DNA of 35,369 nucleotides from Methylococcaceae bacterium (GTDB lineage: Bacteria; Pseudomonadota; Gammaproteobacteria; Methylococcales; Methylomonadaceae), in NCBI GenBank assembly GCA_014191975.1, contig BJHG01000015.1:1-35369 (forward strand), in the 5' to 3' direction. Below, one piece after another: positions 1 to 8,833 of the stretch (position 1 is the stretch's first letter; the number at the start of each line of letters is the position of its first letter). A program made the position numbers and the translations under genes. The notes beneath the pieces are model-generated. The model was given only the letters and a program-made list of their open reading frames with translations. It was not told the DNA's origin and did no database searches.

Positions 1-379
1 GTGTTATCCACGCCTGTCTTTCCGCTATAGGCTGATTCCAGACTTTTTTTTAAGCCAATCTAATTCCATATTCAACTGCCCAATTTTGGCATACAGCCGA
101 TCCGGATCGCTCTGTGCATTGACAGGCTTGGGACCCCGTTTACCTTCAAAAAGACTACCCGCATTGTCCATCAATTCCTTTTTCCATTGACTTACCTGGG
201 TCGGATGGACTCCGTTTTCCTGGGCGATCTCATTGATTGTCTTTGTGCCTTTAACCGCTTCCAAGGCAATCTTAGCTTTTTGTGATCCTGTAAAAATCTT
301 CCGCTTGCTTTCACTCATTTGCCACTTCTCTTTTTTCGACAGAGTATAGCTTAAACTATTGTCCGGATTTCAGGGTCCA
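1..379 (-). mobile_element. IS3-family insertion sequence, partial (runs off left edge)
   Basis: The stretch carries an IS3-type orfA on the minus strand, an A8 run at its 3' end (plus-strand T8 at 44-51) suited to -1 frameshifting, and a plausible terminal end. Read on the minus strand from 379 the end begins TGGACCCTGAAATCCGGACA, starting with TG as IS3-family ends do. Nothing resembling transposase lies beyond 379. The left end, most of orfB and any target duplication are outside the window, so copy integrity cannot be judged. The boundary at 379 is inferred from the TG end and not from a seen duplication. Confidence 0.75.
25..318 (-). CDS. IS3-family transposase OrfA (helix-turn-helix subunit)
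   Basis: This 97-aa protein is a typical IS3 OrfA. A basic N-terminus leads into a helix-turn-helix (about residues 10-50, with INEIAQENGVHPTQVSQWKK), then a GKRGPKP linker and a short coiled coil ending MELDWLKKKSG. In this family OrfA binds the terminal repeats, and a -1 ribosomal slip on an A-run joins it to the DDE catalytic OrfB. Here A8 lies just before the stop, and the -1 frame stays open to the window edge, reading PIAERQAWIT, which resembles the start of OrfB. The DDE domain itself is not in the window. Function is well supported; activity is unknown. Confidence 0.9.
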   Translation of the reverse strand: MSESKRKIFTGSQKAKIALEAVKGTKTINEIAQENGVHPTQVSQWKKELMDNAGSLFEGKRGPKPVNAQSDPDRLYAKIGQLNMELDWLKKKSGISL

Positions 380-528: not shown

Positions 529-1020
529 ATGAAAAAAATTCTCTTTATTTTTATCGTTGTTACGTTTGCTTTTGTAGCAAACGCAACAGAAGTTGGTCAA
601 CCTGCACCACCATTTACTTTGCCAGCGTTAAAAACCGATTCTCCAACGCAGTTAAAACAATTCACAGGCAAAGTCATTTATTTAGACTTCTGGGCTTCAT
701 GGTGTGCGCCATGTAAAACATCGTTTCCATTACTCAATAAATTACATCAAAAACTCAAAGCACAAGGTTTTGAGGTGGTCGCGGTGAATTTAGACGAGGA
801 CAAAACGCTAGGTGAAAAATTTTTACAAGAAATCCCTGTTGATTTCACTGTTTTACGCGACGCAAAAGGCGAATGGGCAGATCAATATGTAGTTGAATCA
901 ATGCCAACCTCGTTTATTATCGACAAAAATGGCATCGTTCAAAAAATTCATCACGGATTTACCCGCGACGACATGAAAGAATTAGAAATTAAAATCACCG
1001 AATTATTGGCAAAGAAATGA
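529..1020 (+). CDS. TlpA-family periplasmic thioredoxin-like protein
   Basis: The 163-aa protein starts with a Sec signal peptide (about residues 1-19, ending VANA) and then has a complete thioredoxin fold of the TlpA/ResA type. The redox motif WCAPC is at residues 58-62 and the cis-proline is in SMPTSF (P126). Such proteins act outside the inner membrane as thiol reductants, commonly for apocytochromes or other Cys-containing exported proteins, and receive electrons from DsbD/CcdA-type membrane proteins. A dsbD gene lies 1.5 kb downstream and the next gene overlaps by ATGA, which suggests that its substrate may be the Cys-tailed lipoprotein it is coupled to. No strong ribosome binding site precedes the ATG. 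Confidence 0.88.
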   Translation: MKKILFIFIVVTFAFVANATEVGQPAPPFTLPALKTDSPTQLKQFTGKVIYLDFWASWCAPCKTSFPLLNKLHQKLKAQGFEVVAVNLDEDKTLGEKFLQEIPVDFTVLRDAKGEWADQYVVESMPTSFIIDKNGIVQKIHHGFTRDDMKELEIKITELLAKK

Positions 1021-1220
1021 AACTGATTGTAATTATTTTGTTAATTGAATTAACTGCTTGCACGGAAGTTTTGCCACGCCAACGCGGAAATCTAGCCTTG
1101 CCACAAATGGCATTCACACCTGATTCGCTAGAATTTGGTTTGCGTCAACACACCGCATTCAGCAAAGAAGCTGCGAGCGGCGGTTATGGCGGCGGTGGCG
1201 GCGGATGTGGTTGTAATTAG
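1017..1220 (+). CDS. DUF4266-type small lipoprotein with GGCGCN tail
   Basis: This 67-aa protein has a short lipoprotein signal with lipobox LTAC (lipidated Cys15), although a Glu sits at position 11 in the hydrophobic segment. The middle has an RGNLA/MAF pattern, and the last residues are Gly-rich, ending in GGCGCN with two cysteines. This matches my recollection of the DUF4266 family. Its start overlaps the TlpA stop (ATGA), implying translational coupling. The function is unknown; the two terminal Cys could bind metal, be modified, or be kept reduced by the upstream thioredoxin. The presumed partner, a DUF3570 protein, follows but is broken here. Confidence 0.8.
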   Translation: MKLIVIILLIELTACTEVLPRQRGNLALPQMAFTPDSLEFGLRQHTAFSKEAASGGYGGGGGGCGCN

Positions 1221-1231
1221 CAGGGACAAAA

Positions 1232-2462
1232 ATGAAGAAAAATAAAACTCACGCACTCACAAAATTAAATTTAGCCGCCCTCGCTTTAACTGGAATGATC
1301 CAAGATGCAAATGCGGGTGGGGGTTGAAGAAAGTTACAACAGCGATTTCCAATACGGGCATTATGCCTAAAGTGGTAATCGCATGAACGTTGATATTTTT
1401 GATTTGGCGATTTCTACACCCATCGGTAAAAGCATGACCTTTGCAGCAAGTTCGGTTCGCGATGTGATTTCAGGTGCGTCGCCAAAATATAACAAAAAAG
1501 ATAGCAAAGGTAATGTTGTTCAGGTTTTGAGTAGTGCATCGCCGACGAACTGGTGCCATCAATCTATTTGTGAACAACGCGATGGCGTAAATTCAAATTT
1601 AACGTATTTTTTCGATAACGCCGCATTAAATTTTGACGGAGGTTTTTCACAAGAACAAGATTACACCTCACGTTTTGTAAACAGTAATTTGAGCTGGGAT
1701 TTTAACAAAAAACTGACCACGTTGAATTTAGGTGGCTCGGTAGCGTTTGATGTTTCTGAGCCGACAAATATGAATCGAGATTGCAGCACGGATACGACTA
1801 ATACGAATTGCCATAAAACCAGCCAACAATATCTACTCGGTGTGTCGCAAATTCTCGACAAAAACTCACTGTTACAGCTCAATATGACTTATGGTTACAG
1901 CGAAGGGTATTTGTCTGACCCTTACAAAACAGTTTGGTTTTATAACGGTAATACGCTATCAGATATTCAATCGGATAAACGTCCACGTGAAAAAAATCAA
2001 TTCGCCTGGCTCGTGCAATATATTCACAACTTTGAAGGTTTGAATAATGCCGCATTGCACGCAGATTACCGTTTTTCAATGGACAATTTGGGCATCAATT
2101 CTCACACTACCGAATTGAGTTGGCATCAACCTATTACCGCTGGTTGGCAAGTTATCCCACGTTTTCGTTATTACTCGCAAGACAGCGCTGATTTTTATTC
2201 TGCAGTTTTTTCGGGTTCGCACAACAGTTACAGCGTGTATTCAAGCGATTATAGATTAGCAGGATTTGGCGCAATCTCTGGCGGCTTGAAAGTCGCAAAA
2301 ACGTTTATTGACGTGTCAAAACCAATTGAACAACTGAAATTACAAGCGGGCGTGGAATACTACGACCACATCGCGGCGTATCAATTAGGCGGTAACAGTT
2401 CGGGCAATTTTGCCGATTTTAGTTATTATTTAGTTAACGCTTCTATGGGTGTAAAATTCTAA
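1232..2462 (+). pseudogene. DUF3570-family outer-membrane-like protein, broken by frameshift and stop
   Basis: A start at 1232 gives a signal-peptide-like N-terminus (MKKNKTHALTKLNLAALAL...) that ends at TGA 1325-1327. One extra G in the run at 1319-1323 explains the break: dropping it gives GGVEESYNSDFQYGHYA in the frame of the long downstream ORF. That frame then meets TAA at 1368-1370, just before SGNRMNVDIFDLAIS. The remaining 359-aa ORF (ATG 1383) contains the DUF3570 signature VRDVISGASP and many alternating aromatic strands ending in Phe, typical of an outer-membrane beta barrel. With two lesions within 50 bases, no exported full-length product is expected. The barrel ORF from 1383 lacks a signal peptide. 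Confidence 0.82.
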
Positions 2463-2513
2463 ATTAAAACCAAGGTTTGAAAACCAACGTCAACAAAAAA
2501 CAACAATATCGGA

Positions 2514-2533
2514 GTACAAACCTTGGTTTGTAC
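2514..2533. promoter_or_regulatory. 20-bp palindrome upstream of dsbD (operator or attenuator candidate)
   Basis: GTACAAACC and GGTTTGTAC are perfect inverted arms around TT, 17 bases before the ATG of dsbD. A further complementary segment, AACCAAGGTTTG at 2468-2479, can pair with CAAACCTTGGTT at 2517-2528, so two mutually exclusive RNA structures are possible. This could be a regulator binding site or a leader structure controlling dsbD separately from the genes before it. No known motif is recognised. Confidence 0.45.
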
Positions 2534-2549
2534 AAATTCTGAGTACATT

Positions 2550-4433
2550 ATGAATAAAATCCTTACTATTTTTGCATTGTGGTTTAGCGTGATTTCGTTT
2601 GCCATCGCAGACGCGCCAACGGCTGAGATTACAGTCAAAGCGGTCAATACGACGTTTCCCGCGCAATATCAAATCAATTTCACCGTTCCGCCTGAGCATC
2701 ACGCCTATTTGGATAAAGGCGACGAGCAAATGTACATTCCTATCACGTTTGATGGGAATGGCGCGTTAGCAGGCGGGGGTTTAAAAATTGAAAAACTCGA
2801 TAAGCCGTTGGGCGTTTACGACAGCGAAGTGAAAGCCACGGTTTTACGCGCCACAGGTGAATTTAATTTAACACTTTCAGGTGCAGCAAACACGGCTATT
2901 TTTCCACTTTCGGTAAAATATCAAATTTGTAACGACACAACAAAACAATGTTTTCGCCCACAAACTGTTTCCGTTGATTTGAAATTACCAACGAATTCAG
3001 TGGCCAAAAAAGTTGAATCGACCAATACCGCATCCGAAAGCTTCACCGACAAATTGCTCGGTTTATTTAAAAACAACAAGGACAACACGTTAATTATGTT
3101 TGGCTTGATGTTGTTAGCAGGAATGTTATCGGTCGCCACGCCTTGTGTGTATCCGATGTTACCGATTACCTCGATGTTTATTATCGGGCGCGCCAACGGC
3201 ATTGCAGCCAAAGAAAAACAACACGCGCTGGTTTATGTTATCGGTATCGTTTGTACTTATACGTTACTTGGTTTAATGGCAGGCATGACGGGCGGCGCGT
3301 TCAATACGTTTATGCAATCAGCCTGGGTCAATTTAGCGTTTGCCTTATTTTTCACTTTCTTTGCGATTGCGTTATTGGGTTTTTACGAACTCGGTTTTAT
3401 GCAAAACGGAGTCCATCATTTAGACCAAAAATCATCGAATGTTAAAGGTTTAACGGGAACATGGATGATGGGTGCAATCGCAGGATTGGTGATTTCACCT
3501 TGCGTCGGGCCGATTGTGTTTGCGCTACTTTTACAAGTTGCCGACAACATTGCTGATAAAGCGGAGGCGTTAGCGTTGCTCAATCAAACGCCGACATTTG
3601 CTGATAAATTCACCATTTCATTGCAAGGCAGCGTGATGATGGCAGGTTTTGGTTTGGGCGTAGGATTACCGTTTTTCTTGGTGAGCGTCGTCAAATTCAA
3701 AAAATTACCGCGTGCTGGTTATTGGATGAACAAAATAAAATACGCTTTCGGGTTTCTAATTTTATATTTCGCTTATACGTATTTAAACAAAGCGATGGGC
3801 GTATTTGGCGTGGATTCAGAAACGACTTTAGTTTTAGCAATGGGGACGCTTTTTGTCTGGATTGCCGTGGTGAATTGTAACGTGTTGAGCCTAGTTCCGA
3901 CCGACGCGCAACCGAATCACAAATTCAAACATTTCATGGGCGTTATCACGATGCTGATTGGCGTTTGGTTAATGGTGACGAGTTTTGGACATTTACCAAT
4001 TTTGAAATCAGCGATTAAATCTGCGGTTGCCGATGAAAGTGTTGGTGTCAGCGCAAATCCAACCATCGAAACAGAAGCAGGAATTTCGTGGTATCGCAAT
4101 TTTGACGCGGCTCAAAAACTCGCGCAACAATCGGGCAAACCTATTTTTATCGATTTTTATGCCAGCTGGTGCGCGAATTGTGTGGAATTTAAAAATGCCA
4201 CGAAAACCAATGCCGCGTTGAATGAAGCCTTACGCACCAAAGCCGTTCCGGTGAAATTGGTCGATAAAGAACCCGAATTTGAAAAATTCCGTGAAAATCC
4301 CACGCATCGTCAATTGAAAATTGGTTTGCCGTATTTTGCGATTTTAAAACCTGACGGTTCGCTTTTATGGTCTGGCACTGATTATCAAGCGACTGACAAA
4401 ATGATTGCCGTTTTAAACGAAAACAATCTTTAA
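2550..4433 (+). CDS. dsbD: Thiol:disulfide interchange protein DsbD
   Basis: DsbD carries electrons from cytoplasmic thioredoxin across the inner membrane to periplasmic reductases. From ATG 2550 the protein has 627 aa. It has a signal peptide (MNKILTIFALWFSVISFAIA), an N-terminal domain with the Cys pair C127/C134, an eight-helix membrane domain with the paired motifs SVATPCVYPMLP (C199) and GLVISPCVGP (C318), and a C-terminal thioredoxin domain with WCANC (C541, C544). All six redox cysteines are present. An alternative TTG start at 2523 lies inside the palindrome and would put ten extra residues before the signal peptide, so the ATG is preferred. It is a likely electron source for the TlpA-like protein upstream. 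Confidence 0.95.
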   Translation: MNKILTIFALWFSVISFAIADAPTAEITVKAVNTTFPAQYQINFTVPPEHHAYLDKGDEQMYIPITFDGNGALAGGGLKIEKLDKPLGVYDSEVKATVLRATGEFNLTLSGAANTAIFPLSVKYQICNDTTKQCFRPQTVSVDLKLPTNSVAKKVESTNTASESFTDKLLGLFKNNKDNTLIMFGLMLLAGMLSVATPCVYPMLPITSMFIIGRANGIAAKEKQHALVYVIGIVCTYTLLGLMAGMTGGAFNTFMQSAWVNLAFALFFTFFAIALLGFYELGFMQNGVHHLDQKSSNVKGLTGTWMMGAIAGLVISPCVGPIVFALLLQVADNIADKAEALALLNQTPTFADKFTISLQGSVMMAGFGLGVGLPFFLVSVVKFKKLPRAGYWMNKIKYAFGFLILYFAYTYLNKAMGVFGVDSETTLVLAMGTLFVWIAVVNCNVLSLVPTDAQPNHKFKHFMGVITMLIGVWLMVTSFGHLPILKSAIKSAVADESVGVSANPTIETEAGISWYRNFDAAQKLAQQSGKPIFIDFYASWCANCVEFKNATKTNAALNEALRTKAVPVKLVDKEPEFEKFRENPTHRQLKIGLPYFAILKPDGSLLWSGTDYQATDKMIAVLNENNL

Positions 4434-4461
4434 ATTTTTTATTTAGGATAATCTTAACTTT

Positions 4462-5604
4462 ATGCAAAAGAAAATTATCGCCACCAGTCTTCTAGGTTTG
4501 TTGGCATTTGCAGTAACACCTGTTTTGGCGACAGAACAAATTGCTTTCTCGATATTTGGCGCATCTGCCTATCTCAATTTATGCAGCACTTGTCATTCAG
4601 GAAGCAAAGAGAATGAAAGCAAAGGTAACTTAAAAGCAGGTATCAATGCTGCATATCAAAAAGATAAATTTGGCTTATCTACATTGAAAGCACTTGTTAC
4701 CACTCCTGCTTTAACTTGCACCTTGCCACAAGTATTAAACACAACTAAAACAGCGTGCATTACACCTGCGCCGACTTGCGTTCCGCCACAAGTTTTAAAT
4801 ACAGCAAAAACCGATTGTGTCACACCGCCCCCAACTTGTAGCGCAACTGAAGTTTTAAATGCGACAAAAACAGCTTGCATTACAAAACCGCCAGCGCCTG
4901 TCAAAAACACAAAACCCATTTTAAATCCTGTTGCTCAACAATGGGATGTGCAAGTTGGCGAAACATTGATCATTCCATTATCCGTAGTTGATGATGAAGA
5001 AGATGAATTTACGATTGTCACAAGCAAATTGAAAGATTCAAAACTGAATCCTGTTACTGAAAATGACGCAGGCTTACCATCAATGGATTTTGAATGGATT
5101 CCAGCGCAAGCGAACGTGAACAAAATTCAAGCAATTACGTTCCAAGCGAAAGAAAAAAGCACAAAACCTGCGTTAGTTTCAAACAAGGTATCTGTCAAAG
5201 TGCGTGTTTGGGCAGCAGGTGATCGAAATGCCGCTTCGATTACCAAATTAAATGTCATGACAAGCAAATTTTCGGCGGGTATTTTGAAATTAGCGGGTAA
5301 TGTAAAATTTAATAGTTTGCTAACAGCAACTGAAATTCAATCGTTTGTTGCTAAAAATTTAGATTTAACCATTAGCGATACGAACGGCTTAATTGACAGT
5401 CTTCCTTTAACTCTCGACAAAAAAGGAAATTGGGCAATTTCAATTCCTATGATTTCTGTACCTTGTGATGTTACATTGGCATTTGCAGGGCAAAATGCGA
5501 GCCGTAGAGTAGTTGGTTGTTTAAAAACAGCTCAATCAAAAATGAACAACATTCTCGCTGCTAATGATGAGGATCATGATAAAAACAAAAAACACGACGA
5601 TTAA
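4462..5604 (+). CDS. Exported protein with CxxCH heme motif, Cys repeats and Ig-like domain
   Basis: The 380-aa protein has a signal peptide (to about residue 23, VLATE), then a heme-attachment motif CSTCH at residues 41-45 in a very short cytochrome c-like segment. Three near-identical 20-residue units follow (about residues 85-144, pattern TC..PQVLNTTKTACIT.P), each with two Cys, and then Pro-rich linkers. The next part (about 150-255) looks like a beta-sandwich domain of cadherin/Ig type (VGETLIIPLSVVDDEEDEF), and the tail is charged (HDKNKKHDD). No obvious distal Met ligand was seen. The gene follows dsbD by 28 bases, which fits a need for reduced cysteines before heme attachment. The specific function is unknown. 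Confidence 0.72.
   Translation: MQKKIIATSLLGLLAFAVTPVLATEQIAFSIFGASAYLNLCSTCHSGSKENESKGNLKAGINAAYQKDKFGLSTLKALVTTPALTCTLPQVLNTTKTACITPAPTCVPPQVLNTAKTDCVTPPPTCSATEVLNATKTACITKPPAPVKNTKPILNPVAQQWDVQVGETLIIPLSVVDDEEDEFTIVTSKLKDSKLNPVTENDAGLPSMDFEWIPAQANVNKIQAITFQAKEKSTKPALVSNKVSVKVRVWAAGDRNAASITKLNVMTSKFSAGILKLAGNVKFNSLLTATEIQSFVAKNLDLTISDTNGLIDSLPLTLDKKGNWAISIPMISVPCDVTLAFAGQNASRRVVGCLKTAQSKMNNILAANDEDHDKNKKHDD
4714..4893 (+). repeat. Three tandem 60-bp coding repeats
   Basis: Units begin at 4714, 4774 and 4834, each starting ACTTG and containing the conserved core AAGT(A/T)TTAAA. They encode 20-aa Cys-containing repeats and keep the reading frame, so copy number can change without breaking the gene. 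Confidence 0.8.
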
Positions 5605-7182: not shown

Positions 7183-7650
7183 TTAATTCCAACGCATCAC
7201 AGGTACAGACGAAATCGAATTTTTCGGCGAACCGTCAATCAATTTGTCGCTGTAAGCGAGATAAACCAAGACATTTCGTTTTTTATCATAGAAACGAACA
7301 ACCTGTAGTTTCTTTAACAACAAGGAACGACTTTCTTTAAAAACAGTGTCACCGTTTTTCAAGTTGCCCAATTTGGTTAAATCAATTGAACCCACTTGCC
7401 GACACGCAATTGAAGCTTCCGAAGGATCTTCAGCTAAGCCAACCGCGCCTTTTAAACCACCTGTTTGTGCTTTTGAAACATGACAGGAAATACCTGCCAC
7501 ATCTGGATCATCAAATGCTTCAATGACGATTTTACTGTTTGGACTAAGTAAATTAAACGTCGTTGAAACTTCGCCAATTTCTTCAGCAACCGCTGAAAAT
7601 GCAAACATTACCAAAATTCCGAAAGTGATTTTTTTTAAGATAATGTTCAT
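7183..7650 (-). CDS. creA: CreA family periplasmic protein
   Basis: The 155-aa protein closely follows E. coli CreA as I recall it: a signal peptide (to about residue 22, AVA), then EEIGEV, the core [53 protein letters not shown] and the C-terminal SVPVMRW. The function of the family is not established. The product is predicted to be periplasmic. Its ATG overlaps the stop of the upstream TerD-family gene (ATGA at 7650-7647), so it is the last gene of a ter operon rather than of the creABCD locus of enterics. Confidence 0.93.
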
Positions 7651-8249
7651 AAAAATAAACTAATGGGTTTGAACAAATCGTTAATGGTTCGACCAGTCGC
7701 ATTTTCGCCAATCGCATGCATTTTCCATTCGCCATTGTGACGGTAAACTTTGGCCATAATTTGCGCGGTGTGCGACCCTTGGGAAGTCAACGTATAACGC
7801 GCAATCTCACTCTGATTATTGCCATCTAGCAAACGACAATACGCATTTTCAACGGAATCAAATGTTTGACCCGTAAATGAATTAACCGTAAAAACTAACG
7901 CCGTCACACTTTCAGGAACACGGCTCAAATCCACCACAATTTGTTCATCATCGCCGTCGCCTTTACCTGTGCGATTATCACCACTGTGCAAAATGCTGCC
8001 GTCTTTGCTTTTTAATTGTCCGAAAAAAATCGCATCAACGGGCTTATCACCTGCAAACATAATACACGACGCATCTAAATCAATTGAATCGTCGCTTGAA
8101 CCGCCACTGAATAATCCACCTAACAATCCCCCTTTTTTTTCACCAGATTGTTTAGCATCCCAACCCAAGCCCATTACGACTTTTGTTAATGTGCCGCCTG
8201 CTTCTTTTTCGAGCGAAATTTTCTGCCCTTTCTCGAGATTAATAGCCAT
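7647..8249 (-). CDS. TerD-family protein with Gly-rich insertion
   Basis: The start is ATG 8249, preceded by AGGA, and gives 200 aa. The longer ORF upstream would overlap the previous gene and lacks family similarity. TerD proteins are calcium-binding cytoplasmic proteins linked to tellurite resistance and envelope stress. The family signature [13 protein letters not shown] is at residues 90-102, and the C-terminal [17 protein letters not shown] motif is present. A Lys/Gly/Ser-rich insertion (about residues 36-54, [19 protein letters not shown]) is absent from its neighbour. It lies 8 bases after the other terD gene and overlaps creA. No terC or terB is in the window. Confidence 0.9.
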
Positions 8250-8257
8250 TTTCAGTC

Positions 8258-8833
8258 CTAAACACTTACGCCAAAAGAAGTCGCTAACGGAGCCAATCCA
8301 CCTGAAAAACCTTGTCCAACTGCACGGAATTTCCAATCACCGCCATTACGATACAATTCACCGAAAATCATTGCTGTTTCAGTAGAAGCATCTTCGCTCA
8401 AATCATAACGTGCTAACTCCACGCCACCGTCTTCGTTAATCACACGAATATAAGCGTTTCTGACTTGCCCAAAATTTTGGTGTCGGGTTTCGCCTTCATG
8501 AATCGTGACGCAAAAAGTAATTTTATCTAAATCAGCAGGGACTTTTGATAATTCGATATTTAAGGTTTCGTCATCGCCATCACCCGCACCGGTTCTATTA
8601 TCACCCATGTGTTGAACTGCACCATCTGCGACAACTTTATTATTGTAAAAACAGAAATCGCCATCGTTTCTAACTTTACCGTCAGCTTTAAGTAAAAAAG
8701 CATTTGCGTCTAAATCAAACGCCGCGCCATCGGTTGAACGCTCTGCCCACCCTAAACCCACTACTATTTTGTTAAGATTTGGTGCTTCTTTGCTTAAATT
8801 AACATTGCCGCCTTTGCTTAATGAAACTGCCAT
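8258..8833 (-). CDS. terD: TerD/TerE-type calcium-binding stress protein
   Basis: The 191-aa length equals that of classical TerD/TerE. The order is [32 protein letters not shown], then the calcium-site motif [13 protein letters not shown] (residues 77-89), RNAYIRV and [18 protein letters not shown]. The family is associated with resistance to tellurite, phage and colicin stress, but the biochemical role is unsettled. It is first in a three-gene operon with a second terD paralogue and creA. TerD versus TerE cannot be separated by eye, so the symbol is provisional. Confidence 0.9.

Follow-up and report, generated by a model that had tools for sequence, protein, structure and literature searches.

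The gene run at positions 529–5604 of the window, the whole 35,369-nucleotide stretch analysed here, which is a contig taken from its base 1, is probably the methanotroph (Methylococcales) version of a published flavinylation system of the DsbD type, in a form that looks degenerate in this genome. In that system, DUF3570 proteins were shown experimentally, including by motif mutagenesis, to be flavinylated by ApbE on two [S/T]GA[S/T] motifs (Meheust et al. 2021, eLife, PMC8238504). The same study catalogued 285 DsbD clusters, whose typical content is ApbE, DUF3570, a thioredoxin and DUF4266, and proposed a possible redox cycling of the DUF4266 CxC. The original prediction, made from the DNA letters, had described the TlpA/DUF4266/DUF3570 set as being without a known role; a role has in fact been published, DUF3570 being the ApbE flavinylation substrate. 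Its idea of a thioredoxin acting on the tail cysteines of DUF4266, with DsbD supplying the electrons, is in line with what PMC8238504 proposes. The element missing from that earlier hypothesis would be a covalent FMN on the barrel, and not a cofactor on the DUF4266 tail. A search of the literature on this system in methanotrophs returned nothing beyond PMC8238504.

Organization of the Locus

Five consecutive genes on the plus strand encode a TlpA-like protein, DUF4266, DUF3570, DsbD and an unclassified CxxCH protein. According to Pfam and to their coordinates, all five are where they were predicted, with corrections for the start of DsbD and for the DUF3570 gene. Among named relatives, the nearest are Methylococcales from freshwater. 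The first gene (529–1020) encodes a TlpA/ResA-like exported thioredoxin with a signal peptide and a WCAPC active site, which matches AhpC-TSA/Redoxin (E ~1e-25), its ResA-like match being under the NCBIfam cut-off. It is coupled through an ATGA overlap at 1017–1020, as had been noticed previously, to the gene of a 67-residue DUF4266 lipoprotein (1017–1220; PF14086, E=5e-20), and the same coupling is seen in the congeners examined by coordinates. This small lipoprotein has the lipobox LTAC-T, a glycine-rich arm and a C-terminal CGCN, its sequence ending with GGGGGGCGCN. DsbD (2550–4433; PF02683) starts at ATG 2550 and not at TTG 2523 as first proposed; it is divergent from the E. coli type, has all six expected cysteines and does not reach the NCBIfam DsbD cut-off. 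The last gene (4462–5604) encodes an exported protein of 380 residues with no Pfam family over cut-off, whose homologues also follow DsbD.

Outside the system, a transposase fragment at the contig edge (HTH_Tnp_1, 25–318, minus strand; PF01527, E=3e-9) corresponds to an IS end, this remnant lying about 200 bases upstream of tlpA. The analysis gave no demonstration of promoter loss through the insertion element: similarity with the upstream DNA of the L035 locus extends to about 120 bases before tlpA. Further along the window (7647–8833, minus strand), two open reading frames that look TerD-like by eye adjoin CreA; with a longer start, the first of them overlaps the second.

Conservation across the Phylum

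An even draw of 349 genomes from the phylum contains 26 with DUF4266 above cut-off, and 28 such DUF4266 loci were counted outside the window genome. DUF3570 adjoins DUF4266 in 28/28 of these loci and TlpA is directly upstream in 26/28, which bears out the association of the three families given in the original prediction. The clustering of DUF4266 with DUF3570 is far beyond chance. ApbE is found at about 20 of the 28 loci, where it is the usual fourth gene, and DsbD at five; adjacency to DsbD is a minority trait, with three changes on the DUF3570 tree. The CGC[NY] end of DUF4266 is present in 124/126 distinct pairs, the two exceptions being a tandem copy lacking the first cysteine and an open reading frame running past the end. 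A DUF4266 family mostly separated from TlpA and DUF3570, or with unconserved tail cysteines, is thus the opposite of what these counts describe. According to the usual sorting rule, a lipobox +2 residue other than Asp directs a lipoprotein to the outer membrane. Since this residue is almost never Asp in DUF4266, the latter is taken as an outer-membrane lipoprotein.

The last residue of DUF4266 is Y beside a long DUF3570 and N beside a short one, with few exceptions (Fisher p 1e-26). This covariation was discarded as evidence for a contact, because it corresponds to a single change on the tree. The clusters devoid of ApbE give a mixed picture as regards the flavin motif, which is retained in some of them. 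Six loci of this kind (L085, L086, L091, L098, L103 and L105) belong to a conserved operon that starts with a large cytochrome, featuring a hydrazine-synthase-alpha middle domain and beta-propeller repeats, continues with an SH3 + barrel protein and a second exported protein, and ends with TlpA-DUF4266-DUF3570. An unusual amplification was also observed in one family relative (G034), with 15 DUF3570 matches in a single genome, several of them close together.

A Damaged Barrel Gene and an Intact Second Cassette

The barrel gene of the window cassette looks broken, apparently recently. Alignment with 11 congeners, in all of which DUF3570 is intact, indicates that the gene should begin at ATG 1232. 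The insertion of one base (+1) near 1316–1322 closes the signal-peptide frame (1232–1327) at TGA 1325–1327, and in the restored frame a TAA (1368–1370) replaces the GAA found in 11/11 aligned congeners; a genome search scored such an internal TAA in the window copy, alone in the genus. Family membership of the predicted barrel gene is therefore well established (PF12094, E=4e-91), whereas the 359-residue open reading frame (1383–2462) is only the remainder of a broken gene, and the barrel as assembled has no signal peptide. This remaining frame is still constrained (dN/dS ~0.09–0.14), so the damage would be either recent or an assembly error. That both lesions are assembly errors, the locus being intact in the cell, concerns the state of the locus and not the mechanism, and looks somewhat doubtful. 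The fragmentation of the genome into 131 contigs, the intact adjoining genes and the constraint just mentioned are consistent with such errors; against them stand two separate lesions within about 50 bases, as well as the changes specific to the window genome at columns where four congeners do not vary, which amount to 28/309 for DUF3570 vs 24/550 for DsbD and 7/137 for TlpA, a rate about twice that of either neighbor. With a barrel truly broken in the cell, the local cassette is probably inactive and its role left to a second cassette, located on contig C3.

This second cassette of the same genome is intact and comprises three exported proteins, TlpA, DUF4266, a long DUF3570 of 861 residues (L054:7594-10179) and ApbE. 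In the model of the long DUF3570, the barrel strands fall into two consecutive sets, giving two barrels in tandem with a His-rich linker between them. Conserved Met/His residues are found in the second barrel part of the long-type proteins, and the 861-residue protein is possibly copper-related.

The window cluster itself contains no ApbE gene, two being present elsewhere in the genome, one of them on the sister cassette; in the congeners also, no ApbE lies alongside the DsbD-type barrel. Since ApbE is encoded somewhere in all 18 genomes of the genus, the window cassette could be served in trans. In family relatives (L052, L055, L057 and L071), TlpA-DUF4266-DUF3570-ApbE-DsbD form one run, with ApbE between DUF3570 and DsbD, which fits with a loss of ApbE from the cluster in the genus. 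The other published components are present, namely a DUF3570 with [S/T]GA[S/T], though its gene is disrupted at the 5′ end, a DUF4266 with a C-terminal CxC, a DsbD in the cluster and a thioredoxin-like gene, which is of the Redoxin/AhpC-TSA type vs the PF13899 counted in PMC8238504. As the clusters of that study only “typically include” ApbE, the window cluster is counted as a variant of the system and is not excluded from it.

Flavin Motifs and Modelled Barrel Topology

The window DUF3570 carries the flavinylation-type motif ISGASP, with SGAS at residues 30–33 of the 359-residue frame, and a second candidate flavin site, SSAS. ISGASP is also found in orthologues, and [S/T]GA[S/T] in 115 of the 126 DUF3570 partners; the GA of motif 1 is invariant in an alignment of 30 DUF3570 sequences. 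The topology was derived from the AlphaFold model of the L035 orthologue (pLDDT 82), read as secondary structure only. The barrel of this model consists of 16 strands; its chain begins and ends on the short-turn side, and the last residue is Phe. All the matches listed by a PDB fold search with it are outer-membrane barrels, and the search gave no family closer than generic ones. The GAS motif and the second site are predicted to lie in the second loop, of 30 residues, on the long-loop side, which corresponds to the extracellular end. Out of the 22 residues invariant in the 30 sequences, 19 map in the model to the outer third or the long loops and none to the periplasmic third (P ~0.001 for the long-loop end and ~0.0006 for the short-turn end). 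Such a distribution would place the flavin site either at the outer end of the barrel or within its upper lumen. A new element is the model itself, a 16-strand barrel whose extracellular end would carry the flavin motifs and most of the invariant residues. Because the motif loop would be at that end, ApbE would have to modify DUF3570 while the latter is still in the periplasm, ahead of its folding and insertion into the outer membrane.

DsbD and the CxxCH Protein

The window genome has a single DsbD locus. Five congeners (G005, G007, G012, G013 and G016) have no TlpA-DUF4266-DUF3570 block in front of DsbD but keep DsbD itself and the last gene. Since it is retained there without the barrel block, DsbD has other work and is not exclusive to the flavinylation system.

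The 380-residue protein has the single heme motif (CSTCH) and the six repeat cysteines expected from the original prediction, the latter in three CxxxxVLNxxKTxC repeats, with two further cysteines near the C-terminus. It also has a conserved C-terminal domain outside named families, with an Asp/His-rich C-terminus in this genus, and no cytochrome c family of Pfam or NCBIfam matches it over cut-off. The putative CxxCH heme attachment motif is present in every homologue located after DsbD next to a barrel cluster, and missing in 5/5 of the congeners lacking the barrel block, which corresponds to two losses on the tree, both where the block is missing. (One further protein without CxxCH, L234, begins at the edge of its contig and gives no information on this point.) A strict tie between CxxCH and the barrel is rejected, because barrel-less homologues elsewhere (L235, L236, L240, L243 and L245) keep the motif, so the link is suggestive only. 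At L245:7085-9710, TlpA directly precedes DsbD, the DUF4266-DUF3570 pair is missing and the CxxCH protein is retained. The cysteine repeats look like linkers rather than active sites, since their number varies and they are absent in the Crenothrix homologues (L058 and L069). The CxxCH protein recurring after DsbD represents a new, conserved methanotroph addition to the published system.

Proposed Electron Path

From the gene association, the conservation of the motif and of the CxC, and the modelled topology described above, we infer each electron-transfer step, its direction and the acceptor. DsbD would deliver electrons to the TlpA-like thioredoxin, which would in turn reduce the C-terminal CxC of the DUF4266 outer-membrane lipoprotein. 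The glycine-rich tail of the latter could be a flexible dithiol arm, reducing the FMN attached by ApbE to the GAS motif(s) of the 16-strand DUF3570 outer-membrane barrel. The flavin would then hand its electrons to an acceptor, probably an oxidant or a metal ion, located on the cell surface or close to it, with the CxxCH protein as a possible partner at this step. A more detailed version is put forward tentatively: a heme-poor conduit, where the CGC end of DUF4266 would be a swinging arm entering or touching the barrel to reduce FMN in the extracellular-side loop, and where the methanotroph CxxCH protein at the surface, with its Asp/His-rich tail, would take the electrons or present the metal.

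The earlier suggestion involved no flavin transfer: TlpA would keep the CxC tail reduced as a binding site for a metal or a cofactor, and the barrel would receive this site or retain it. The invariant glycine-rich CGC end of DUF4266 is in line with such a site, and metals may well be involved, given the conserved Met/His of the second barrel in long-type DUF3570 and the Asp/His-rich tail of the CxxCH protein in the genus. It is nevertheless unlikely, DUF3570 being a shown flavinylation substrate (PMC8238504) and ApbE the usual fourth gene. Moreover, redox exchange alone accounts for a dithiol that has a thioredoxin and DsbD as neighbors, and the analysis found no indication of metal binding by the tail. 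It is also improbable that TlpA and DUF4266 are assembly factors, which would repair incorrect disulfides in the loops of the barrel or maintain the last protein's CxxCH cysteines in the reduced state needed for heme attachment: relatives of TlpA, ResA and DsbD do serve cytochrome c maturation, and many methanotroph DUF3570 proteins have cysteines in extracellular loops (CHQSIC beside the second flavin site), but these loop cysteines are missing in L042, L045, L055 and L071 despite the same TlpA-DUF4266 pair, and no CxxCH homologue is recognised beside most clusters of the phylum.

Flavinylated DUF3570 systems are widespread, and the model presented here places their flavin at the outer end of an outer-membrane barrel. 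This placement makes a specific claim, namely that electrons would leave the periplasm by way of thiols and flavin, without multiheme cytochromes. Methanotrophs have many DUF3570 copies (15 matches in one genome), and the way in which they deliver electrons to metals when oxygen is scarce is still debated (PMC13322032).

Comparison with Known Systems

The window locus and the DsbD-type flavinylation system (PMC8238504) have the same four families side by side, with GAS in DUF3570 and CxC in DUF4266. They differ in three respects: the window cluster lacks its own ApbE, which is located on the second cassette, DsbD is followed by the gene of a CxxCH protein, and the barrel gene is broken. A transfer of electrons across the outer membrane at a barrel is also proposed for the MtrAB-type porin-cytochrome conduits, including in Methylobacter (PMC13322032). 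In contrast to these conduits, to which no family relationship was found, the window cluster has no decaheme cytochrome, and flavin and thiols would replace the heme chain. The E. coli DsbD-DsbC/DsbG and the CcmG/ResA relays have in common with the proposed path a DsbD feeding a periplasmic thioredoxin-fold protein. The next partner would here be a lipoprotein tail and a flavinylated barrel, instead of a misfolded protein or an apocytochrome.
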